Below the pieces are notes generated by a model, which did no database searches, was not told the DNA's origin, and saw only the letters and a list, made by a program, of their open reading frames with translations. DNA of 64,000 nt from a bacterium (GTDB lineage Bacteria; SZUA-79; Acidulodesulfobacterales; Acidulodesulfobacteraceae). The stretch covers positions 1 through 64,000 of the forward strand of contig JAJZVN010000002.1 in the NCBI GenBank assembly GCA_021845685.1, written 5' to 3'. Positions 22,225 to 33,707 of the stretch are shown in pieces. The translations under genes and the position numbers were made by a program. The first letter of the stretch is position 1. Each line of letters begins with the position of its first letter.

Positions 22225-22581
22225 GTGGATAAACATTATTGTTTTGAAGAAAATAATTTAAATGTTAAATGCAAAGAATTATCTAAAATATTTAAACTAT
22301 TATCAAATCCTACGAGACTCGGTATTCTTTGTATAATTTGCGATGAAGAAGTCAGTGTAAGCGATATATGTTCGGTATTAGGGAAATCTCAATCAAATAT
22401 ATCTCAGCATTTATCAGTTTTAAGAAATACAAATATGGTAGATTTTAAACGGGAAGATAATAAACTGCGGTATTATCTAAAAAATACCAATATAAGCAAA
22501 CTTATTAAAGATATTAAAGATATTAAAAATGCTAGCGATTTAAAAGAATTAAAATTATCTAACGATAATTTTCACGATTAG
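22225..22581 (+). CDS. ArsR-family transcriptional regulator (sHdrR-like)
   Basis: A 118-aa winged-helix repressor. The family helix-turn-helix is visible as LLSNPTRLGILCIICDEEVS then CSVLGKSQSNISQHLSVLRN, followed by the wing FKREDNKLRYYLKN. The protein carries five cysteines (6, 16, 36, 39, 49), which could sense persulfides or metals. The canonical arsenic box CVCDL is not present; VSDIC occupies that area. Start is GTG with a weak leader. Only 40 bases separate it from sHdrC1, and sHdr clusters are known to carry ArsR-type repressors that respond to sulfur compounds, so it most likely controls this locus and itself. Confidence 0.85.
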   Translation: MDKHYCFEENNLNVKCKELSKIFKLLSNPTRLGILCIICDEEVSVSDICSVLGKSQSNISQHLSVLRNTNMVDFKREDNKLRYYLKNTNISKLIKDIKDIKNASDLKELKLSNDNFHD

Positions 22582-22621: not shown

Positions 22622-23356
22622 ATGAGTGAAGAAGTAAAAAATCCGATTACGGAAAAGATTGAAAGCACCAAAGGCGGACATTTTTATAAAGAAATCATGA
22701 AAGATTTCCGTATTAAAGAATCTCTGCACGGTTGTCTAAATTGCGGTACCTGCGTTGCCAATTGCCCTGCCGCCGCTTTTTATGATTACTCTCCCCGCGA
22801 AGTATGTCAGATGATGATTGAAGGCGATGAAGAAACTATTGAAGAATACATGAACGGCAAAATATGGAACTGCGCTCAATGTTTCAGCTGTAAATACAGA
22901 TGCCCTAAAGAAAATTCGGCAGCCGATATAGTTATGACTATGAGAGAAATTGCCGTAAGAGAGGGAATGGCTGGAGAAGCCCTTGCAGGATATACAAGAA
23001 TAGCCAAGCTAGTTTTAACTCGCGGAAATCAGCTTGCGCCCGATATGTTATCCCCCGACGCTTTTCCTGACTGGGGTCCAAGAATGATTGAGTTATCCGA
23101 AAAAAAAATGGAGATGAGAGAAGAACTTTTTAAAGGTTTTCCAGGAATGAATGTTGTTGACAGAGCATGGGCGGCCGAAGATTTTACGATTTATGAAATG
23201 CAAAAAATTTGGCAAGAAAGCGGAGCATTAGAAAAAGTAGGAATCGTATTTCCTTTTTTAGTAGATATAGTTCAAGATGATATGGAAGATAAAGCCGATG
23301 AAATGGAAGCAAAAATTGCTGAAAAGAAAGCTAAATTAGCTGCATCAAATAAATAA
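22622..23356 (+). CDS. sHdrC1: heterodisulfide reductase-like iron-sulfur subunit C1
   Basis: A 244-aa HdrC-type ferredoxin subunit of the sulfur-oxidation sHdr complex, relaying electrons between the FAD subunit and the HdrB-type subunit. Two 4Fe-4S motifs of the CX2CX2CX3CP type are present: CLNCGTCVANCP (near residue 39) and CAQCFSCKYRCP (near residue 85). The remainder is helical and acidic, ending in a Lys/Ala-rich tail. AAGGAGG precedes the ATG. It is the first structural gene after the ArsR regulator and is separated from sHdrB1 by 252 bases that contain a hexamer repeat. Confidence 0.92.
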   Translation: MSEEVKNPITEKIESTKGGHFYKEIMKDFRIKESLHGCLNCGTCVANCPAAAFYDYSPREVCQMMIEGDEETIEEYMNGKIWNCAQCFSCKYRCPKENSAADIVMTMREIAVREGMAGEALAGYTRIAKLVLTRGNQLAPDMLSPDAFPDWGPRMIELSEKKMEMREELFKGFPGMNVVDRAWAAEDFTIYEMQKIWQESGALEKVGIVFPFLVDIVQDDMEDKADEMEAKIAEKKAKLAASNK

Positions 23357-23430
23357 TAAATTTGCTGCTTATTAAATCAATATTATTTTTAATTATTGAT
23401 ATAATTAAGATAAATTTAAGATAAAGATTA

Positions 23431-23484
23431 AGATAAAGATAAAGATAAAGATAAAGATAAAGATAAAGATAAAGATAAAGATAA
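23431..23484. repeat. Hexanucleotide microsatellite (AAAGAT)n
   Basis: Nine uninterrupted copies of a 6-bp unit (AGATAA register), with decayed copies before it, lie between sHdrC1 and sHdrB1 inside the operon. Copy number changes would alter spacing in mRNA, not a reading frame. Confidence 0.85.
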
Positions 23485-23608
23485 AAACGTTAAAAAATAG
23501 TTCTACATTATTATAATTATAATAATAAATAATCATTTAAATTAAAAAGAAGTTATATTAAATTATCTATATAAATAAATAAATAAATTGATAGGGAGGG
23601 CATTATTC

Positions 23609-24700
23609 ATGTCTTACGAAATAAATGATGTTAAAACCGCAATTAATCATGGAAAAGGAATGAATTATCATGTTCATGATATAAGAGCGGAAATGAAAAA
23701 ATTAGAAGAAGAAGGAGAAATAAAAATTGCACATATTATAGGACCGTACAAAGAAGAAGAAGTAATGTACGGAATAAAAAAAAGAGTTCCTTTAGATATG
23801 CATTATCAGCACAAGAGCTGCGGGCAGTGCGCTAATCTTCCCGGCGTTCCGAGATCTAATTTTTATTATAGAGATAAACTTGGAATAAAGTACTATAACG
23901 ATATGCAGCAAACATCCTGTACCGCATGGAATTATCATGCATCAGGACTCGGCAACTTAGTTCAGTTGGGTGCCGTTGCAGCAAGAAATTGGCACAGAGC
24001 TTATGAAGAAGGCTATAATTTTACAATCCATTGCGTAACAAGCTTTGGCAATTATCTTGAAATGAGACATTTGCTTGTCGGAAATAAAGAACTCAGGGAT
24101 GAAGTAAAAAAAATAATGGCAAAATTAGGCAGAGAGCTTGTAATTCCTGAAGAAATTGTTCATGACAGCGAGATTGCTTATGCTTTAAGAGATAAAATTC
24201 TTGCAAATGCCGATCCAAAACGGCTTGCGGCTATTAAAGGTTTGAAAGCCGTAGAACATTACGGATGTCATTTCTTTAAACAAGTTTCAGATGATATAAT
24301 AGGCGGTAAAAGACCTATAGTAGTCGGTGGATTAGCTTCACATTTAGGTGTTCAGATGGAAGAATATTCTAAATGGTTTATGTGCTGCGGATTTGGATTC
24401 AGACATATTCTTGTTAACAGAGAATTTACAAGATCTGCCCAAAATATTAAGTTAAAAGCTATCAAAGAAGAGGTTGATCCTGATATGATATTAGTTAATT
24501 GTACGGGATGCGGAACTACTTTTGATAAAACTCAATGGATACAAAAAGCCGTTGGAGAAGATTATCATTATCCTGTTGTATTTTATTCTCAGCTTGCGGC
24601 ATTGGCATTAGGAGCGCATCCGTTTAAAGAAGCAGGATTGAATTTTCATGTTACCCCTGTAGAACCGCTTCTTGATAAAATGGGAATTTCATATAGTTAA
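23609..24700 (+). CDS. sHdrB1: heterodisulfide reductase-like subunit B1
   Basis: A 363-aa HdrB-type subunit with cysteine-rich segments that bind non-cubane iron-sulfur clusters at the sulfur-converting site. Cysteine motifs are SCGQCANLPGVP near residue 72, TSCTAW near 109, HYGCHF near 220, MCCGFGFRH near 262, and NCTGCGTTF near 298. The start is set at the ATG 23609 with GGGAGGG at 23594-23600; an in-frame TTG at 23588 lies before that site and is unlikely. It is longer than methanogen HdrB (~300 aa), as is usual for sHdrB1. It follows sHdrC1 in the canonical C1-B1-A order. Confidence 0.9.
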   Translation: MSYEINDVKTAINHGKGMNYHVHDIRAEMKKLEEEGEIKIAHIIGPYKEEEVMYGIKKRVPLDMHYQHKSCGQCANLPGVPRSNFYYRDKLGIKYYNDMQQTSCTAWNYHASGLGNLVQLGAVAARNWHRAYEEGYNFTIHCVTSFGNYLEMRHLLVGNKELRDEVKKIMAKLGRELVIPEEIVHDSEIAYALRDKILANADPKRLAAIKGLKAVEHYGCHFFKQVSDDIIGGKRPIVVGGLASHLGVQMEEYSKWFMCCGFGFRHILVNREFTRSAQNIKLKAIKEEVDPDMILVNCTGCGTTFDKTQWIQKAVGEDYHYPVVFYSQLAALALGAHPFKEAGLNFHVTPVEPLLDKMGISYS

Positions 24701-25056
24701 TTTATATTAAATTATATATATAATTGCTTCCGCAAAATATTTAGATATTTAGATATTTTTAAGATATATTATATAATCTAAAAAAAATTAAATATTAACA
24801 AATAATACATAAATTAATTTTATATAATTTTATAAAGAATAGCGTATTTTCTTGGAATAGGCAGATTAAATTTTATTAAGCAGGTAGTTGTTGTTGTCCT
24901 AATTTATGCCTTTAGGAATAAGGAAGTACATATTATGATGTAAAAAATATACATCAGAATATCTATATATCTATAAATTCCTGTTTTAAGGTATAAGGAA
25001 TATGTCAAAAAAACTTATTTAAATATATTATTTTATTAACAAGGAGGTATTTTAAG
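24701..25056. other. Gene-free spacer inside the sHdr locus
   Basis: These 356 AT-rich bases between sHdrB1 and sHdrA hold no ORF. One small hairpin, TGATGTA...TACATCA (about 24937-24958), lacks a following T run. A ribosome-binding site GGAGG (25043-25047) at the right end belongs to sHdrA. Confidence 0.6.
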
Positions 25057-26103
25057 GTGAAAACAGTTTTAGTCATAGGCGGCGGAGTTACAGGTCTTAA
25101 GGCATCATATGAATTAGCAGAAATGGGGTATAACGTTTCATTAGTAGAAAAAGAAGATTATCTCGGCGGACAAGTTGCAAAGCACAAGTATTATAAACTA
25201 GCTCCGGATATGCGTTTGGCAGGAGAAGTTATAGACCCTGTTATTAAAAGCGTAGAAAATAATTCTAATATTAAAGTTCATAAGCATTCAACTATCACAT
25301 CATTATCAGGTGATGCGCCTGAATTTAAAGTTAAAATTAAAAATTCTAAAGGCGAATCGGAAGAAACTTTTGGAGCAATTGTTGTTGCAACAGGTTTTGA
25401 GCATTTTGATCCTACCGTTAAGCAGGAATATGGTTATAGCAGATTCAAAGATGTTGTTACAAATGCCGAAATAGAAGAAATGCTTAACCCAAACGGTCCT
25501 ACAAAAGGGGAACTTAAAAGACCTTCGGACGGAAAAACTCCTAAAAAAGTTGCAATATTTCAATGCGTAGGTTCAAGAGATAAACAGGTTGGGAATCCGT
25601 ATTGCTGCAGAGTAGGCTGTGTCGTTTCAACAAAACAGGCTATTGAAATTAAAGAAAAATATCCTGACACCGAAGTTTATGTATATTATATGGATATGAG
25701 AATGTTCGGCAGAGGATGGGAAGAACTATACGGAAAAGCAATGGAAGAATATGAAGTTATTTTTACAAGAGGCAGAGGCGCAGAAGTTACATTAAAGAAT
25801 CAGCAGCTGTCGTTAAGAGCTGAGGAAACTATTATGGATAGACCTATACAGCATTCTGTAGATATGATTATTCTTGCGGCAGGACAGGCACCCGGCGAAG
25901 GAACTATCGAAGCAGCTAAAATACTTGGAATTAAACAAAATGAATATGGATATTTAGCGCCAAAAGATGATTTTTTGAGCCCGAATGAATCTTCCAGAAA
26001 AGGAATATTTATCGCAGGCGCAGACAAAGGTCCATTGGATATTGAAAATTGTATAGTGGAAGGTGCCGCCGTAGCAGCAAAAGTTGCATCATCTTTAAAA
26101 TAA
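25057..26103 (+). CDS. sHdrA: heterodisulfide reductase-like FAD subunit A
   Basis: A 348-aa FAD-binding electron-transfer subunit of the sHdr complex. The Rossmann motif VIGGGVTGLKASYELAEMGY starts at residue 5, followed by VEKEDYLGGQ. A cysteine cluster motif CVGSRDKQVGNPYCCRVGCV near residues 168-187 is typical of HdrA-type proteins. The C-terminal FAD segment is GIFIAGADKGPLDIENCIVEGA. It lacks the extra N- and C-terminal ferredoxin domains of methanogen HdrA, matching the short sHdrA form. Start is GTG with GGAGG 9 bases upstream. Next is sHdrC2 after 58 bases, without the hyp gene often found there. Confidence 0.92.
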   Translation: MKTVLVIGGGVTGLKASYELAEMGYNVSLVEKEDYLGGQVAKHKYYKLAPDMRLAGEVIDPVIKSVENNSNIKVHKHSTITSLSGDAPEFKVKIKNSKGESEETFGAIVVATGFEHFDPTVKQEYGYSRFKDVVTNAEIEEMLNPNGPTKGELKRPSDGKTPKKVAIFQCVGSRDKQVGNPYCCRVGCVVSTKQAIEIKEKYPDTEVYVYYMDMRMFGRGWEELYGKAMEEYEVIFTRGRGAEVTLKNQQLSLRAEETIMDRPIQHSVDMIILAAGQAPGEGTIEAAKILGIKQNEYGYLAPKDDFLSPNESSRKGIFIAGADKGPLDIENCIVEGAAVAAKVASSLK

Positions 26104-26161
26104 TCTTAAAGAATATTGAGAATATTAAAAATTTTAATATAGAAATAAATAAGGAGTTAAC

Positions 26162-26806
26162 ATGGCGGAAAATACTGATAAAATGGTTATCGACGGCGTA
26201 GAACTTGTAGGCATTTGGAAAGAGTTTATGCCGTCAAGAATATTATATGAAGATGTTACTACGGAATTTCTTAATGAAGTTAAAAAACTGCCCGGCGGAG
26301 AAACTATCGCAAAATGCTATCAATGCGGTACTTGCACGGGAGGATGTACGCTTCCTGAATTTGTTGATAAATTTAATCCTAGAGGTTTTATTAATTTAGT
26401 AAGAAGAGGACATTATGATCTGTTAGTATCTGATTATAAAGAATTAGTATGGAAATGCGTTTCATGCAACAGATGCACGCATAGGTGTCCGAAAGGAGTT
26501 AATACTCAGGAAGTAGTGAGAGCTATAGCGAAATTTCTTGAAGACAGAAAAGTATTTGGAAAACTTACAAACGATGAAGCATTTGATGAAGTTTTTATGG
26601 ATGAAGTTATCAATGACGGAAGAATTGACGAAGTTAAAATTGTAAAAGATTTTTATGCTAAAACAGGCAGGCTTAAAGAAATGATGAGCGGAGACCAATT
26701 ATCCTTAGGCTTTAAAATGTTTACAAGCGGAAGAATCAAACTATTCGGAGGCAAAATTAAAGATTGGAAAAAAGTGTCTCAGAGGTTAAAGGAGGAATTA
26801 CAATGA
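26162..26806 (+). CDS. sHdrC2: heterodisulfide reductase-like iron-sulfur subunit C2
   Basis: A 214-aa second HdrC-type subunit. Two CX2CX2CX3C clusters are visible: CYQCGTCTGGC (near residue 56) and CVSCNRCTHRCPKG (near residue 100). The rest is helical. AAGGAG precedes the ATG. The stop overlaps the sHdrB2 start (ATGA), so the two subunits are translationally coupled and likely form a C2-B2 subcomplex that is the counterpart of C1-B1. Confidence 0.92.
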   Translation: MAENTDKMVIDGVELVGIWKEFMPSRILYEDVTTEFLNEVKKLPGGETIAKCYQCGTCTGGCTLPEFVDKFNPRGFINLVRRGHYDLLVSDYKELVWKCVSCNRCTHRCPKGVNTQEVVRAIAKFLEDRKVFGKLTNDEAFDEVFMDEVINDGRIDEVKIVKDFYAKTGRLKEMMSGDQLSLGFKMFTSGRIKLFGGKIKDWKKVSQRLKEELQ

Positions 26807-27708
26807 AATTAGGTTATTTTCCAGGCTGTTCATTAAAAGGAATGGCAAGAGCATATGATGAATCTACAAAAATAGTTGCCGAAGGTTTTGGCATTGAATT
26901 GATGGAAGTTGATGATTTTAACTGCTGCGGAGCTCTTGAAGCTAAAGGGTCTAATGAAAAACTTTCATATATGCTTCCTGCAAGAGTTATGGATTCTGCT
27001 AAAGGCAGATTTCATGTCGATGCCGTTGTTACCCCTTGCAACGGATGTTATCATAGCTTACTTAGAGCTAACGCTGCTATGAATGAAGACTCTGCTGCTA
27101 AAAGCGATGTTATAAGTTTTTTGAAAGATGTCGGTTACGGCACTTATGAAGGCGATATAGACGTAAGACATTTTCTTGAATTGTTTTATAACGAGGTTGG
27201 TCCTGAAAAAGTAAAAAATGCCGTAAAAAAATCGCTTAAAGGTTTGAAAGTTGCTTCTTATTACGGTTGTTTATATGAAAGACCTAAAACAATCACAAAA
27301 ACAGGTTATAAAAGCAAAAGAGACGATTCTGAAAATCCATATTTTCAAGATGAGCTTTTAGCGGCTACGGGAGCTGAAGTTGTTAAATTTGAAGCTGCCG
27401 CATCATGTTGCGGAGGAGCTCATGCTCTTCAAGACGAATCATTGGCAGCAACACTATCCGCTGCGGTATTGTCAGCTGCTAAAAAAGCGGGAGCTGATAT
27501 TTTGGCTCTGCCATGTCCATTATGCGGCGCCGCATTAGATATTAAACAGCCTGAAATAGTTAAGGCTCACGGAAATGATGCAAAGATTCCCGTTGTTTAT
27601 TTTACCCAATTAATAGGACTTGCTATGGGAAAATCTGCTAAAGACTTAAAATTAACCGATCCTATTTCTAATCCTATGGAGATACTAAAATCTAAAGGAT
27701 TGGTTTAA
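26803..27708 (+). CDS. sHdrB2: heterodisulfide reductase-like subunit B2
   Basis: A 301-aa HdrB-type protein with two CCG domains. The first has YFPGCSLKG, FNCCGALEA and TPCNGCYHS; the second has YYGCLYERP, ASCCGGAHA and LPCPLCGAALD. All cysteines needed for two non-cubane clusters appear intact. The start is the ATG at 26803, which overlaps the sHdrC2 stop and has GGAGG at 26791-26795; a longer TTG frame from 26764 is not credible. It closes the sHdr block, and a terminator follows 70 bases on. Confidence 0.92.
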   Translation: MKLGYFPGCSLKGMARAYDESTKIVAEGFGIELMEVDDFNCCGALEAKGSNEKLSYMLPARVMDSAKGRFHVDAVVTPCNGCYHSLLRANAAMNEDSAAKSDVISFLKDVGYGTYEGDIDVRHFLELFYNEVGPEKVKNAVKKSLKGLKVASYYGCLYERPKTITKTGYKSKRDDSENPYFQDELLAATGAEVVKFEAAASCCGGAHALQDESLAATLSAAVLSAAKKAGADILALPCPLCGAALDIKQPEIVKAHGNDAKIPVVYFTQLIGLAMGKSAKDLKLTDPISNPMEILKSKGLV

Positions 27709-27992: not shown

Positions 27993-28430
27993 ATGGCTAA
28001 AATGAACGGGTGTGATATTCCCGAAGATCTTTATTACAATATTGAAAAGCACGTCTGGGGCAAAATTGAATCCGACGGCACTGTTTTAATGGGCATGACT
28101 AGCGTTGCCGCAAGTCTTGCAGGCAAACTTCTTTATATTACTCCTAAAAAAGTCGGGCAAAAAGTTATTCAATTAAAATCAGTGGCTACGGTTGAAAGCG
28201 GAAAATATGTCGGGCCGGTTCCTGCACCTTTCGGCGGTGAAATTTTAGAAATAAATGAAGATTTGAAAGCGGACGTTTCTTCCATTAACAGCGATCCTTA
28301 CGGTAAGGGATGGGTATGCAAAATTAAACCTGCCGATATTGAAGCCGATAAAAAAAATTTACTTACAGGGAAAGAAGCTGTAGAAGCATATAAGAAAAAG
28401 ATTGAAGCAGACGGTATTAAATGCGAATAA
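27993..28430 (+). CDS. lbpA: LbpA1: lipoate-binding protein (GcvH-like) of the sHdr system
   Basis: A 145-aa lipoyl-carrier protein related to glycine cleavage H protein. The lipoylation lysine is in ATVESGKYVGPVPAPFGG, near residue 70, followed by the hairpin EILEIN. The C-terminal half DPYGKGWVCKIKP matches GcvH/LbpA. No glycine cleavage genes (gcvT, gcvP) are present. The location directly after sHdr and before lipS1 fits the LbpA carriers known to be required for sHdr-dependent sulfur oxidation. A strong AAGGAGG precedes the start. A second copy follows 32 bases downstream. Confidence 0.92.
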   Translation: MAKMNGCDIPEDLYYNIEKHVWGKIESDGTVLMGMTSVAASLAGKLLYITPKKVGQKVIQLKSVATVESGKYVGPVPAPFGGEILEINEDLKADVSSINSDPYGKGWVCKIKPADIEADKKNLLTGKEAVEAYKKKIEADGIKCE

Positions 28431-28462: not shown

Positions 28463-28909
28463 ATGGCAATTTTAAATGAATGCAATATTCCCGAAGATCT
28501 TTACTATGATATTGAAAATCAGGTTTGGGGAAAAAAAAACGACGATGGAACATTTACTTTCGGAATGACCGATCCTGCTCAATCACTTGCCGGAAAAATA
28601 TTATATGCCGATGTTAAAGCTGTCGGTAAAATTATAAAAAAAGGGAAAAGTGCCGCTACTATTGAAAGCGGAAAATATGTCGGTCCGTTTCCTATGCCGT
28701 TTGCAGGAGAAATAGTTGAAGTCAATACTGAATTAGAACAAGATTCGCATATTATTAATTTAGATCCGTACGGAAAGGGTTGGTTAGTTAAATTAAAACC
28801 TCTTCCGGAAGCAGTATCTGATATTAACTTATTACCGACCGGAGAAACTGCCGTTAATGCTTATAGAAAAAAATTAGAAGAAGAAGATATCGTTTGTAAA
28901 AAGAGATAA
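28463..28909 (+). CDS. lbpA: LbpA2: second lipoate-binding protein
   Basis: A 148-aa paralog of the preceding protein, sharing the opening NIPEDLYYDIENQVWGK and the lipoyl site ATIESGKYVGPFPMPFAG. It ends DPYGKGWLVKLKP plus a tail. The two copies clearly arose by duplication but differ at many surface positions, so they may serve different partners. GGGAGG precedes the ATG. It is followed by lipS1 after 75 bases, making lbpA1-lbpA2-lipS1 a likely transcription unit. Confidence 0.92.
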   Translation: MAILNECNIPEDLYYDIENQVWGKKNDDGTFTFGMTDPAQSLAGKILYADVKAVGKIIKKGKSAATIESGKYVGPFPMPFAGEIVEVNTELEQDSHIINLDPYGKGWLVKLKPLPEAVSDINLLPTGETAVNAYRKKLEEEDIVCKKR

Positions 28910-28984: not shown

Positions 28985-29986
28985 ATGAGTTATTATGAAT
29001 TTAACAAAGATATAACTTCTAAATATATAAATGGTTTTAATATAAGGAAAAATAATTTCGATAATGCGATTCATTTTTACGCACCAAGCATTAAAGCTTA
29101 TGAGACTGAAGATTTTAAAAATGAAAAATCAGATTCTTTCCCTCCTTTATCTATAACCGGTAATTCGTGTTCTTTAAAATGCGATCACTGCAATGCCGAA
29201 ATATTAAAGTCTATGGATTCGGTTATTATACCCGATGATTTATATCATAGGGCAAGCCAAATATTTAAATCGAAAGGGAAAGGTTTCTTACTAAGCGGAG
29301 GATCTAATGCTAAAGGTATTGTTGAAATTTTACCGTATATTGACACGATAAAAAAAATCAAGGCTGATTTTAAACTTAAAGTTATAGTGCATTGCGGTAT
29401 AATTACCGAAGAAATAGCCGATGGTCTGCTTGATGCGGGCGTTGATTCGGCTATGCTAGATATAATCGGCGACGAAGATACTATTCGCACCGTTTATCAT
29501 TTAAAAGCCTCAGTTGATGATTATGATAATTCATTAAAATATTTATCGGAAAGAAACATCCCCTGTTCTCCTCATGTGGTAATAGGATTAAAACACGGTG
29601 AAATTGCAGGTGAATTTAATGCAGTTGATATTATATCAAAACATAACATTTCATCGTTAGTGCTTGTAGGATTTATGCCTATGGGAAATACAAAAATGGA
29701 AAATATTGCTCCTCCTGAACCTGAAGAAATCGGAGATGTTTTTATATACGCTCGAGAAAAATTTACCCGGACGCCCGTCCTGCTGGGGTGTGAAAGACCT
29801 TACGGAATGAATAAATTTAAAATTGAAGAACTTGCTGTTAAAGCCGGATTAAACGGAATTGCCTATCCTTCGGAAGGCATTATTCCTTTTAGTAAAGAGC
29901 TTAAGTTAAAGCCGTTATATTCAGATGTATGCTGTTCTTTGATTTTTGCCGAAGAAGCATTATCTGCTATCCATATCGGCGGTTAA
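28985..29986 (+). CDS. lipS1: LipS1: radical SAM lipoate synthase subunit 1
   Basis: A 333-aa radical SAM protein. The cluster motif CSLKCDHC (CX3CX2C) is near residue 60, in the context SITGNSC; GFLLSGGSN follows as the SAM-binding GGE-like segment. Extra cysteines occur in GCERPYG and DVCCS near the C-terminus. LipS1 and LipS2 together insert two sulfur atoms into the octanoyl chain, replacing LipA. Assignment rests on both the sequence pattern and its place between lbpA and the lipoate ligase, the order known from sHdr clusters. Confidence 0.85.
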   Translation: MSYYEFNKDITSKYINGFNIRKNNFDNAIHFYAPSIKAYETEDFKNEKSDSFPPLSITGNSCSLKCDHCNAEILKSMDSVIIPDDLYHRASQIFKSKGKGFLLSGGSNAKGIVEILPYIDTIKKIKADFKLKVIVHCGIITEEIADGLLDAGVDSAMLDIIGDEDTIRTVYHLKASVDDYDNSLKYLSERNIPCSPHVVIGLKHGEIAGEFNAVDIISKHNISSLVLVGFMPMGNTKMENIAPPEPEEIGDVFIYAREKFTRTPVLLGCERPYGMNKFKIEELAVKAGLNGIAYPSEGIIPFSKELKLKPLYSDVCCSLIFAEEALSAIHIGG

Positions 29987-30197: not shown

Positions 30198-31742
30198 ATG
30201 TTTAGAGTTATAGATACGGGCATTAAAGATTTTTCTTATAATATTGCTATGGATAAAGCTATGCTTGATCTAAGAAAAGATAATATAATTCCCGACTCCC
30301 TGCGTTTTTTGACATTTAACCCTTGCACTTTAGCAGGCTTTCATCAATCGGTGTCTAATGAAATCAGAATTGATTACTGTAAAGATAAAAATATTGATAT
30401 AGGCCGCCGCATAACAGGCGGCGGTGCCATATATTTTGATGAAATGCAATTAGGATGGGAGTTAGTTTTTTCCTCAAAAACTCTTAAAGCCGCAAATTTT
30501 CAAAATTTAACTGAAAATATATGTAATGCATTTGTATCAGGCATTAATAGATTAGGCATTAATGCAAAATTTAGACCTAGAAATGATATTGAGGTTGAAG
30601 GAAAAAAAATATCCGGTACAGGCGGAACATATGATTCGTCTATATTTTTTTTTCAAGGCACTTTGCTTTTAGATTTTAATCCTGAATTTATGGTAAAATC
30701 ATTAAAAATTCCGGTAGAAAAGTTAACTTCCAAAAATTTTGATTCTATATCGGCAAGAATTACTTCTATAAAAAAAATACTCGGGTATATTCCTGATATT
30801 GAAATTATAAAGTCTGCAATTATAGAAGGATTTTCTGAATATTTCAATATCCCGTTTAATTTCGGAATGCTGACGGAAGAAGAAAATAATTATATCAGAC
30901 AAAATAAAAAATATTATAAATCTGATGAATGGGTATATTCATTAGATAATGAGCTGTTAGAAACTAAGACGATTCACGATACATACAGATGCGGCGGAGG
31001 CATATTTAAAACTTTTGCAAAAATAGATTATAAAAGAAATATATTAAAGTATATTTATTTTACCGGCGATTATTTTGTCGTTCCGGAAAGAGCGATTGCC
31101 GACCTTGAAAGTTTTTTAAAAGATTGCGGTATTGATGAGTTAGTTTTTAAAATTGACGAGTTTTTTGAAAAAAATAAACCTGAATTTCAAAATGTTTCAA
31201 AAGAAGATTTTTTTAATATAATAAATAATATATCGGATAAAATAACTTTTCTTAAAAATGTAGGAATTAAAGAAGATGAACTTTCCCGTTTTATGCTTGT
31301 CAATGGAATGCAATTAAGCGATATAAAATCTGTAAAAGCTATTCTGCTGCCTTATTGCGCTAAAAAAAAGGATTGCGAATTTAGAAATGCCGATTACTGT
31401 TCAATATGCGGAGATTGCGAAACGGGTATTGCTTATAAATTTGCAAAAGATTTTAAATTATTGCCTATTACTATAATTAATTATGAAAATCTCGTAGAAA
31501 CATTAAATAAATTAAAAGATGCAAATATAAGTTCATATATCGGTTTTTGCTGTAAAGAATTTTATATAAAACGCAATAAAGCATTCAAAGATTCAGGCAT
31601 TAAAGCTTTGCTTATAGATATTTCTTCTCCGTTATGCTACAATTATAAAAAAGAAGAAGATGCATATAAAGGTGTATTTGACGGCGAAACTTTGCTAAAT
31701 GCAAATATCTTAAACGATTTATCTAAAATTATAAATAAATAG
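30198..31742 (+). CDS. Lipoate-protein ligase fused to a DUF116-like cysteine-rich domain
   Basis: A 514-aa two-part protein. Residues ~1-240 are a lipoate/octanoate-protein ligase catalytic domain with GRRITGGGAIYFDEMQLGWE and the lysine-containing KKISGTGGTY. Residues ~245-345 resemble the LplA accessory domain (TYRCGGGIFKTFAKIDY). The C-terminal ~145 residues carry LPYCAKKKDC, YCSICGDCETG and YIGFCCKEFY, the pattern of DUF116 proteins, which are Cys-rich and metal or cluster binding. The ligase part would charge LbpA for LipS1/LipS2. The start at 30198 has only a weak ribosome site; MFRVIDTG is a natural N-terminus. Flanking lipS1 and lipS2 support the role. Confidence 0.85.
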   Translation: MFRVIDTGIKDFSYNIAMDKAMLDLRKDNIIPDSLRFLTFNPCTLAGFHQSVSNEIRIDYCKDKNIDIGRRITGGGAIYFDEMQLGWELVFSSKTLKAANFQNLTENICNAFVSGINRLGINAKFRPRNDIEVEGKKISGTGGTYDSSIFFFQGTLLLDFNPEFMVKSLKIPVEKLTSKNFDSISARITSIKKILGYIPDIEIIKSAIIEGFSEYFNIPFNFGMLTEEENNYIRQNKKYYKSDEWVYSLDNELLETKTIHDTYRCGGGIFKTFAKIDYKRNILKYIYFTGDYFVVPERAIADLESFLKDCGIDELVFKIDEFFEKNKPEFQNVSKEDFFNIINNISDKITFLKNVGIKEDELSRFMLVNGMQLSDIKSVKAILLPYCAKKKDCEFRNADYCSICGDCETGIAYKFAKDFKLLPITIINYENLVETLNKLKDANISSYIGFCCKEFYIKRNKAFKDSGIKALLIDISSPLCYNYKKEEDAYKGVFDGETLLNANILNDLSKIINK

Positions 31743-31843
31743 ATAGTAAATCAAGATGCCGATAAGGATTGTCAATTTATAAAAATGATAAATAATATAC
31801 AGTATACAGATAATAAATAATGAATATAATGGAGAATATTTAT

Positions 31844-32977
31844 ATGAATTATCAAGAAACGGCTATTCAAGAAACTTCTTTTGGAGAAACTGCTGAAAAT
31901 ACTGCCTTTAAAGAAACTTTTATAGATGAAAATTTAAATAATCATGCAGCCGAAAATTCGCCTGAATATCTCAAGGTCAGTCTTGCAGCAGCGATGACGC
32001 TTGGAATGGTACCCGGATTATTTCATAGAAATGCTTGCCTTCATTGCGTTAATGTTCTTTTGACTTATGATGACGGATGCAGAGCAAATTGCGCCTATTG
32101 CGGTTTACAAAAATCCCGCGAAGGAAATTACAGCGATAAAAGTTTTATAAGGGTAGACTGGCCGGCATTTAAAACTAAAGATATCATTAAACGCACGCTT
32201 GACAAAAAAGACGTTATTCATAGAATATGTATATCTATGATTACTCATGAAAAGGCTAAAGAAGACACTTTTGCGATATTACGGAATTTTAGTAAAAATC
32301 TTCATTGCCCAACTTCTATATTGTTAACCCCTACTGTTCTAAAACATTCCGATATAGATAAATTTAAAGAATACGGCGCAGATATGGTTACGGTAGCACT
32401 TGACTGCGCAACCCCCGAATTATTTGATGAATACAGAGGGACAGGCGTTAAAGGTCCGCATAAATGGGATAAATATAATGATACTTTAGACTATTCCGTT
32501 TCTGTTTTCGGAAAAAATAAAGTGGGATGTCATCTTGTAGTCGGTCTTGGAGAAACAGAAAAAGAAATGATTTTTAGAATTCAGAATATTAGAAATAAAG
32601 GAGCGCGTTCCCATTTATTTTCATTTTATCAAGAAAAAGGGTCAAAATTAGACGCTCATCCTCAGTGTCCGGCGGGTCAATTCAGAAGGGTTCAGGTAGC
32701 TCGGCATATTATTGATTACGATATGGGTCATGCGGAAGATATGGAATTTGACAATAGCGGCAAAGTAATTGATTTTGGAATTCCTTTTAAAAATGTAGCT
32801 GAAATAGTTGAAACGGGGACTGCATTTAGAACTACCGGGTGTCCCGGCAAATCGGAAATTTCTGCCTGCAACAGACCTTTTGGCGATTCTTCACCGAGAA
32901 ACATAAGAAGTTTTCCGTTTGAATTAAATGCTTCCGATATCGCGAGAGTCAGGAAAGAACTTTTAGAATATGAATAA
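31844..32977 (+). CDS. lipS2: LipS2: radical SAM lipoate synthase subunit 2
   Basis: A 377-aa radical SAM protein. The cluster motif CRANCAYC (CX3CX2C) lies near residue 84, preceded by CVNVLLTYDDG, and the SAM barrel includes HRICISMITH and VTVALDCATP. C-terminal cysteines in HPQCPAGQFR and GCPGKSEISACNRPFGD may hold an auxiliary cluster, the expected sulfur donor in a lipoate-forming enzyme. I place the start at 31844 because GGAG (31831-31834) sits 9 bases ahead; an upstream ATG at 31820 in the same frame is possible. It follows the ligase gene by about 100 bases. Confidence 0.85.
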   Translation: MNYQETAIQETSFGETAENTAFKETFIDENLNNHAAENSPEYLKVSLAAAMTLGMVPGLFHRNACLHCVNVLLTYDDGCRANCAYCGLQKSREGNYSDKSFIRVDWPAFKTKDIIKRTLDKKDVIHRICISMITHEKAKEDTFAILRNFSKNLHCPTSILLTPTVLKHSDIDKFKEYGADMVTVALDCATPELFDEYRGTGVKGPHKWDKYNDTLDYSVSVFGKNKVGCHLVVGLGETEKEMIFRIQNIRNKGARSHLFSFYQEKGSKLDAHPQCPAGQFRRVQVARHIIDYDMGHAEDMEFDNSGKVIDFGIPFKNVAEIVETGTAFRTTGCPGKSEISACNRPFGDSSPRNIRSFPFELNASDIARVRKELLEYE

Positions 32978-33239: not shown

Positions 33240-33707
33240 ATGGCGGAAGGAGATAGAGTAGCAGTAAAAATTAAACATTTGAATAATCTTCAAAATCAGA
33301 TAATAACAGATAAACATACGATAATTACAGATGAGCCGACGTGTTCCGGAGGGGACAACCTTGCTATAAATCCTGTGGAGCTTGCTATGGGAGCGGAAGG
33401 AGCATGTACAATTTCGGTTATTATGATGTTTGCAAAAAGAATGAAATATGACTTAAGAAATGTGGAAATAGATGCAGTTCATGAAAGAGTGAGAGTTGAA
33501 GACCTTAAAAATGCGGGCGCAAATATTGATGCCGAACGCGGATATGTTCATAAAATTATAAAAAAAATTAAATTTATAGGCAATCTTGATGAGGATCAAA
33601 TTGAAGAATTACAGCGGGTTTCAAAAAGATGCCCTGTTCATACTATGATAGAAAATAGGTCTTATTACGATACATCGTTTGAATATGAAGAAATAAACAA
33701 ACAATAA
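33240..33707 (+). CDS. OsmC-family protein
   Basis: A 155-aa OsmC/YhfA-like protein. These reduce organic peroxides or act on persulfide-like thiols through two cysteines. The family pattern is clear: INPVELAMGAEGACTISVIMM holds the first conserved Cys (residue 59), with RMKYDLRNVEIDA following, and RVSKRCPVHTMIE holds the second (near residue 132). A GGAG precedes the ATG. It is encoded just downstream of the lipoylation genes and 33 bases before a methyltransferase. A role in handling sulfur or peroxide stress alongside sHdr is plausible but unproven. Confidence 0.88.
   Translation: MAEGDRVAVKIKHLNNLQNQIITDKHTIITDEPTCSGGDNLAINPVELAMGAEGACTISVIMMFAKRMKYDLRNVEIDAVHERVRVEDLKNAGANIDAERGYVHKIIKKIKFIGNLDEDQIEELQRVSKRCPVHTMIENRSYYDTSFEYEEINKQ

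Follow-up and report, generated by a model that had tools for sequence, protein, structure and literature searches.

Between lipS1 and lipS2, the genes for the two radical SAM subunits of a lipoyl synthase, the window (the whole stretch of 64,000 nucleotides analysed here, from an Acidulodesulfobacterales-type bacterium) carries a lipoate ligase gene whose product continues past the ligase domains into a cysteine-rich C-terminal domain. What does this domain do, and does it belong to lipoate assembly? A first-pass annotation had likened it to DUF116 and suggested that DUF116 acts in lipoate assembly, for example as a sulfur or cluster donor to LipS1/LipS2. Here we describe the domain, termed DUF116L, its distribution and its genomic company. 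We propose that the protein is a bifunctional ligase whose C-terminal part is an Fe-S relay dedicated to one LipS1/LipS2 clade, a reading to which we assign a probability of about 0.6.

The locus and its ligase

The genes given here with coordinates lie on the forward strand. The run begins with an ArsR-family regulator (22225-22581; Pfam HTH_5), followed by sHdr-like genes (22622-27708) recognised by Pfam Fer4, CCG and Pyr_redox_2 and by TIGR03288. They encode HdrC-like (22622-23356), HdrB-like (23588-24700) and HdrA-like (25057-26103) proteins, a second HdrC-like protein (26162-26806), named by its position and two CxxCxxC motifs, and a second HdrB-like protein (26764-27708). Two GcvH-like lipoate-binding proteins, the likely substrates, are encoded by lbpA1 (27993-28430; Pfam GCV_H, E 1.1e-34) and lbpA2 (28463-28909; E 2.4e-34). 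Next come lipS1 (28985-29986), the fused ligase gene, with boundaries at exactly 30198-31742 (514 aa, ATG start), and lipS2 (31820-32977). Downstream are a conserved neighbour for an OsmC-like protein (33240-33707; Pfam OsmC, E 4e-11, and synteny), a methyltransferase gene and then tilS, the last named from sequence. With lipS1 and lipS2 beside ligase and lipoate-binding genes, the locus is a LipS1/LipS2 lipoate assembly cluster, and its layout is that of an sHdr sulfur-oxidation operon with lipoate assembly genes (compare PMC6067878 and PMC10332631). The order lbpA1-lbpA2-lipS1-ligase:DUF116-lipS2 was preserved in the fetched assemblies of the same family wherever contigs reached.

The NCBIfam models NF053742 and NF053743 were the best matches of LipS1 and LipS2, yet the scores were below their cut-offs (224.8 bits against 230 and 208 bits against 270, respectively). 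Such scores fit a distinct clade, here called type B, to which the LipS2 tree also assigns the window, and because of them automated annotation may miss this clade.

The lipoate:protein ligase part comprises residues 1-345. TIGR00545 spans residues 3-342, and the closest solved structures are lipoate ligases whose matches end at about residue 345. The LplA catalytic domain occupies residues 12-212 (30231-30833; Pfam LplA-B_cat, E 4.9e-42), and a motif table showed its motifs to be complete: RRITGGG (70-76), NDIE (129-132) and GKKISG, the last with the predicted catalytic Lys137 (codon 30606-30608). An LplB-like accessory domain follows at residues ~268-342 (30999-31223), as indicated by the structure match 3r07_C (268-341) and by the LplB model NF053749 (275-342), although the latter scored 31 bits (E 2e-7) and was under its 65-bit cut-off. 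The protein thus has the hallmarks of sLpl(AB), namely RRxTGGG, NDxE, the Lys in GxKISG and an LplB accessory part fused on the C-terminal side. With its intact motifs, it is predicted to load octanoate (or lipoate) onto LbpA. From the ends of the TIGR00545 and LplB matches at residue 342, the extra domain begins at about residue 350.

A divergent, soluble DUF116 domain

DUF116L covers residues ~352-505 (31251-31712), as supported by a PF01976 (DUF116) match, cysteine conservation and AlphaFold2. The likeness to DUF116 was borne out by PF01976, which matched residues 352-482 of the window protein (E 2.2e-6, 27.6 bits; gathering cut-off 25), gave 30.6 bits with the domain alone and matched 21 of the 21 members of the domain alignment (best E 6.9e-15). 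The motifs YCAKKKDC, CSICGDC and CC had been read correctly in the first-pass annotation, which did not list an eighth cysteine. The eight cysteines lie at residues 387, 393, 401, 404, 407, 451, 452 and 480 (codons at 31356, 31374, 31398, 31407, 31416, 31548, 31551 and 31635), in the motifs PYC387AKKKDC393, C401SIC404GDC407, C451C452 and C480Y; that is, five fall in a PYC...C...CxxCGxC region and three in CC...CY. Each of the 56 distinct homologues compared has all eight, and PY-C-x-K, E430, G449, K458 and CY were likewise invariant. Weak, sub-threshold Fer4 matches occurred in 5-6 of the 21 alignment members.

For the domain alone, AlphaFold2 gave a confident model of an alternating alpha/beta domain (pLDDT 84.9, pTM 0.83), and the full-length fusion reached a pTM of 0.58 with no fixed interdomain packing. 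Searched against solved structures, the domain had no convincing match (best E 0.036 by Foldseek and 0.67 by profile search). The maximal 19-residue hydropathy was 1.1 for the fusion and 1.0 for the DUF116L of Sporomusa, against 2.9-3.5 in two canonical DUF116 members.

Canonical DUF116 sequences (PF01976 / COG1852 / arCOG02078) were inspected against the 56 DUF116L sequences. Both groups share the cysteines of PxC, C, CxxCGxC, (A)C and a final C. In contrast to the canonical proteins, DUF116L has no transmembrane helices, reads LPYCAKK for LPHCLQ, lacks the motifs ATGGTLAR and ACERDLxSGI...GPC, has one additional cysteine (the CC pair), and is fused to a lipoate ligase or adjoins one. Judged by its sequence, DUF116L is a divergent soluble DUF116 subfamily, since it lacks the transmembrane segments, which are not part of the Pfam domain. 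The passage of PMC5898192 that deals with the family predicts, from other contexts, that PF01976 is metal-binding, flavodoxin-like and electron-transferring, and describes archaeal members with two N-terminal transmembrane segments. That passage is silent on lipoate, and none of the papers searched for DUF116 connected it to lipoate; the domain architecture may already be listed in protein databases.

The fusion is the sole DUF116 protein in the window's genome (G000), and most of its relatives additionally encode a canonical membrane DUF116 about 250 aa long. This canonical protein was present in all six congeners searched and was not found in G000, by loss or because of an assembly gap.

Recurrence of the fusion

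About 20 other assemblies of the window's family have the fusion in a syntenic position; among the named relatives, Candidatus Acididesulfobacter diazotrophicus showed 95% identity over the DUF116L domain. The fusion recurs in several unrelated lineages outside the window's family, and Candidatus Formimonas warabiya has it on a complete chromosome (NZ_CP017634.1). It is therefore no assembly artefact, the outcome that the first-pass annotation had named as fatal to its reading. When 84,980 species genomes were scanned, at least 31 loci were found, comprising 29 ligase fusions and two free-standing domains; the scan used short peptide patterns derived from the domain alignment, which miss variants such as IPYCAKD, so that 31 is a lower bound. 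The two free-standing domains are those of Sporomusa sp. KB1 and S. ovata (in S. ovata DSM 2662 the gene at L084:7977-8543, with an adjacent H-protein gene) and lie directly after lipS1 in an lpl-lipT-lipS2-lipS1 cluster; non-fused relatives, on which the first-pass annotation had left a question, therefore encode DUF116L separately in the same cluster as the ligase.

In one Bacillota genome, ligase, DUF116L and LipA form a triple fusion of 836 aa (L082:2559-5069, +) beside lipT, lipS2 and lipS1. This cluster holds a canonical LipA and LipS1/LipS2 lipoyl synthases together. Another genome (G390) has two ligase-DUF116L/lipT/lipS2/lipS1 clusters (L079 and L128). One candidate was discarded: a 566-aa frame in G288 matched DUF116, and its locus had no DUF116L or ligase match and only a distant LipT-like protein. 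A plasmid search returned nothing that covered 80% of the query, and its best matches were only ordinary ligases.

Association with type-B LipS1/LipS2

In a LipS2 tree of 64 sequences, types A and B were separated with 100/100 support. All DUF116L carriers on the tree fell in type B, where the domain is missing at several scattered points, a pattern requiring at least eight changes. We examined the association in 201 genomes of the Negativicutes, the class of Sporomusa, and in 300 genomes of the Formimonas phylum; the two samples may overlap slightly. G793, whose contig ends inside the ligase, was excluded from the contingency counts. In the Negativicutes, type-A LipS1 scored at least 267 bits and type-B LipS1 208-228 bits, the latter in 11 genomes. 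DUF116L was present in 10 of these 11 genomes and in none of the 190 others, 30 of which had only type-A LipS1 (Fisher p = 4.7e-16, or 9.8e-9 for LipS1-bearing genomes only, shared ancestry being ignored in both). A weak match in G414 of this sample was a canonical DUF116. In the Formimonas phylum, LipS1 accompanied DUF116L in 12 of 12 carriers and occurred in 66 of the 288 other genomes (Fisher p = 4.9e-8, ancestry again ignored). Outside the window's family, LipS1 was present in all ten DUF116L genomes searched; the sole exception to this company is G060, a fragmented genome in which the fusion and LipT were present and LipS1 was not found. S. ovata G395 (L084 and L126) and G393 (L082 and L127) possess both a type-A and a type-B system, and DUF116L and LipT stand beside type B only.

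This association does not extend to DUF116 at large. With the window's family set aside, LipS1 and PF01976 shared four genomes where 3.3 were expected (Fisher p = 0.75), so that DUF116 in general was rejected as a lipoate protein and the claim of the first-pass annotation for the whole family was too wide. Nor is DUF116L a universal requirement of LipS1/LipS2: it is missing from type-A systems and from 11 type-B genomes, which are named in the LipT comparison below.

Selection on DUF116L was indicated by its survival of ligase decay. In the Negativicutes sample, seven genomes encode an intact, unfused type-B ligase and a second ligase-like protein bearing DUF116L; these pseudo-ligases (L149, L151, L152, L153, L154, L155 and L156) lie next to or apart from the intact ligase. 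In six second fusions that were compared at the motif positions, NDE was replaced by SAA, AAE, STE, SGH, GER or GGY; TGGG has lost its third glycine in five of the six, and Lys137 is missing from four. The decayed fusions retain all eight cysteines of DUF116L, and three Sporomusa-type genomes have no second ligase half at all and keep DUF116L by itself. Because the cysteines stay invariant while the ligase half decays or disappears, DUF116L is under selection for a function of its own. For the soluble subfamily, then, the proposed link to lipoate assembly stood: given its tie to type B in several phyla and its survival of ligase decay, DUF116L very probably has a role in LipS1/LipS2-dependent lipoate assembly.

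Pairing with LipT and the proposed function

LipT is an FAD protein of the GGR type that nearly always shows a QCAE signature, and it has been proposed as the reductant or electron source for LipS1/LipS2 (PMC10332631). Outside the window's family, it was encoded by all 29 of 29 DUF116L carriers, two Sumerlaeota and the fragmentary G060 among them. Among the 11 type-B genomes without DUF116L, nine had no LipT anywhere in the genome (G663, G880, G700, G847, G619, G699, G070, G347 and G215) and two had it (G479, L158; G635, L207). The coupling gives a Fisher p of 2e-7 and is partly phylogenetic. Read on the LipS2 tree, these data correspond to about four independent joint absences of LipT and DUF116L; DUF116L by itself is missing twice, and LipT by itself never. 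Within the window's family, LipT is not linked to the operon and was found in 27 of 30 genomes, including 19 of the 19 good ones; the copy in the window's genome (G000:C18:43133-44092) is cut by a contig end. The operon has no lipT of its own, which raised the idea of DUF116L as a LipT substitute; this was rejected given the LipT elsewhere in G000 and in the family. The co-occurrence and the joint absences favour an electron-transfer role for DUF116L.

We propose the following division of labour. The N-terminal two-thirds of the protein would attach octanoate (or lipoate) to LbpA. The C-terminal DUF116L would be a soluble iron-sulfur protein serving one LipS1/LipS2 clade and working as a functional partner of the flavoprotein LipT. 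Its most likely task would be to relay electrons between LipT and the radical SAM enzymes that insert the two sulfurs, in a direction that the data do not tell, and the fusion would hold the relay beside freshly octanoylated LbpA. The parts of this scheme differ in strength. From its conserved cysteines, which are the presumed cluster ligands, DUF116L is probably an Fe-S protein, and eight of them could be enough for two [4Fe-4S] clusters. We regard it as rather likely that the LipS1/LipS2 system has in DUF116L a fifth, hitherto unrecognised component, an Fe-S partner that either supplies electrons together with LipT or renews clusters. That it acts specifically as an electron relay with LipT has somewhat better than even odds.

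The main alternative is the role suggested by the first-pass annotation, in which DUF116L, as a dedicated donor of sulfur or carrier of [4Fe-4S] clusters, would renew the auxiliary clusters of LipS1/LipS2 in the manner of NfuA. The purified Thermococcus enzymes sacrifice their auxiliary [Fe4S4] clusters and, when driven by a physiological reductant, complete only about 1-1.5 turnovers (PMC9585515), so that a regenerating factor is expected; the eight invariant cysteines with their CC pair and the ligase-DUF116L-LipA fusion adjoining lipT-lipS2-lipS1 would suit such a factor. However, the coupling to LipT is better accounted for by redox chemistry, for which reason the electron relay is preferred. 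The general Fe-S scaffold SmsB2C2 loads LipS1/LipS2 of Thermococcus in vitro (PMC12442378), so that a dedicated donor is not required in principle, and DUF116L is missing from type-A and several type-B systems. We therefore consider a donor role unlikely. A DUF116L-type domain could meet both the electron and the cluster needs of LipS1/LipS2.

It is still less probable that DUF116L is a structural or metal-binding module, for example for zinc, that tethers the ligase, LbpA and LipS1/LipS2 with no redox or cluster role. Docking would agree with the fact that most lineages have it fused to the ligase and that the Negativicutes keep the fusion with degenerate ligase domains, but Sporomusa keeps DUF116L alone and unfused, the full-length AlphaFold2 model shows no fixed packing between the domains, and the cysteine pattern is that of a family independently predicted to transfer electrons in the relevant passage of PMC5898192. 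A meaningless accident or assembly artefact, to which only the DUF116 score barely over the Pfam cut-off lends colour, is refuted for practical purposes by recurrence across many independent assemblies and phyla, conservation of the eight cysteines and survival after ligase decay.

Relation to known lipoate assembly systems

The closest known counterpart is the sLpl(AB)-LipS1/LipS2(-LipT) pathway of sHdr-dependent sulfur oxidisers (Cao 2018, PMC6067878; Tanabe 2023, PMC10332631). The window shares with it the sHdr genes, lbpA, lipS1, the ligase and lipS2, a ligase built of LplA and LplB parts whose motifs are intact, and a LipT encoded in the genome. It differs in that its LipT is unlinked and its ligase adds the C-terminal DUF116L, which is not named in either paper. 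The Thioalkalivibrio and Hyphomicrobium systems of PMC10332631 are lipS1-slpl(AB)-lipT-lipS2 clusters, described with no mention of a DUF116L-like domain, and heterologous expression of lipS1-slpl(AB)-lipT-lipS2 yielded a one-sulfur product. A second counterpart is LplA_LipA_fuse (NF053790), in which a ligase is likewise joined to the sulfur-inserting side; the window protein scores 122.9 bits with NF053790, whose cut-off is 800, and has DUF116L in the position of LipA, and in L082 ligase, DUF116L and LipA are chained together. Human FDX1 (PMC10470009) and NfuA are comparable as Fe-S proteins needed for lipoylation, by analogy only, as no sequence relation was found.

By its tight co-occurrence with one LipS1/LipS2 clade and with LipT, DUF116L is a direct candidate for the missing factor that would deliver electrons to LipS1/LipS2 or rebuild their clusters in vivo. 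If the proposal is correct, DUF116, a family for which electron transfer has until now been only a prediction, would be placed in a concrete pathway for the first time.

The two lipoyl synthase subunits are themselves fused in some genomes. In two Sumerlaeota, LipS2 and LipS1 form one chain of about 665 aa with LipS2 first (L124:284-2290, -; L125:4957-6945, +), and a ligase-DUF116L fusion is encoded in the same genomes; this lends support to the idea that LipS1 and LipS2 work together in a single complex. Fusions with LipS1 first were found in clusters without DUF116L (L217:7513-9420, -; L218:8305-10449, +), and the opposite order indicates that the fusion of LipS1 and LipS2 arose more than once.
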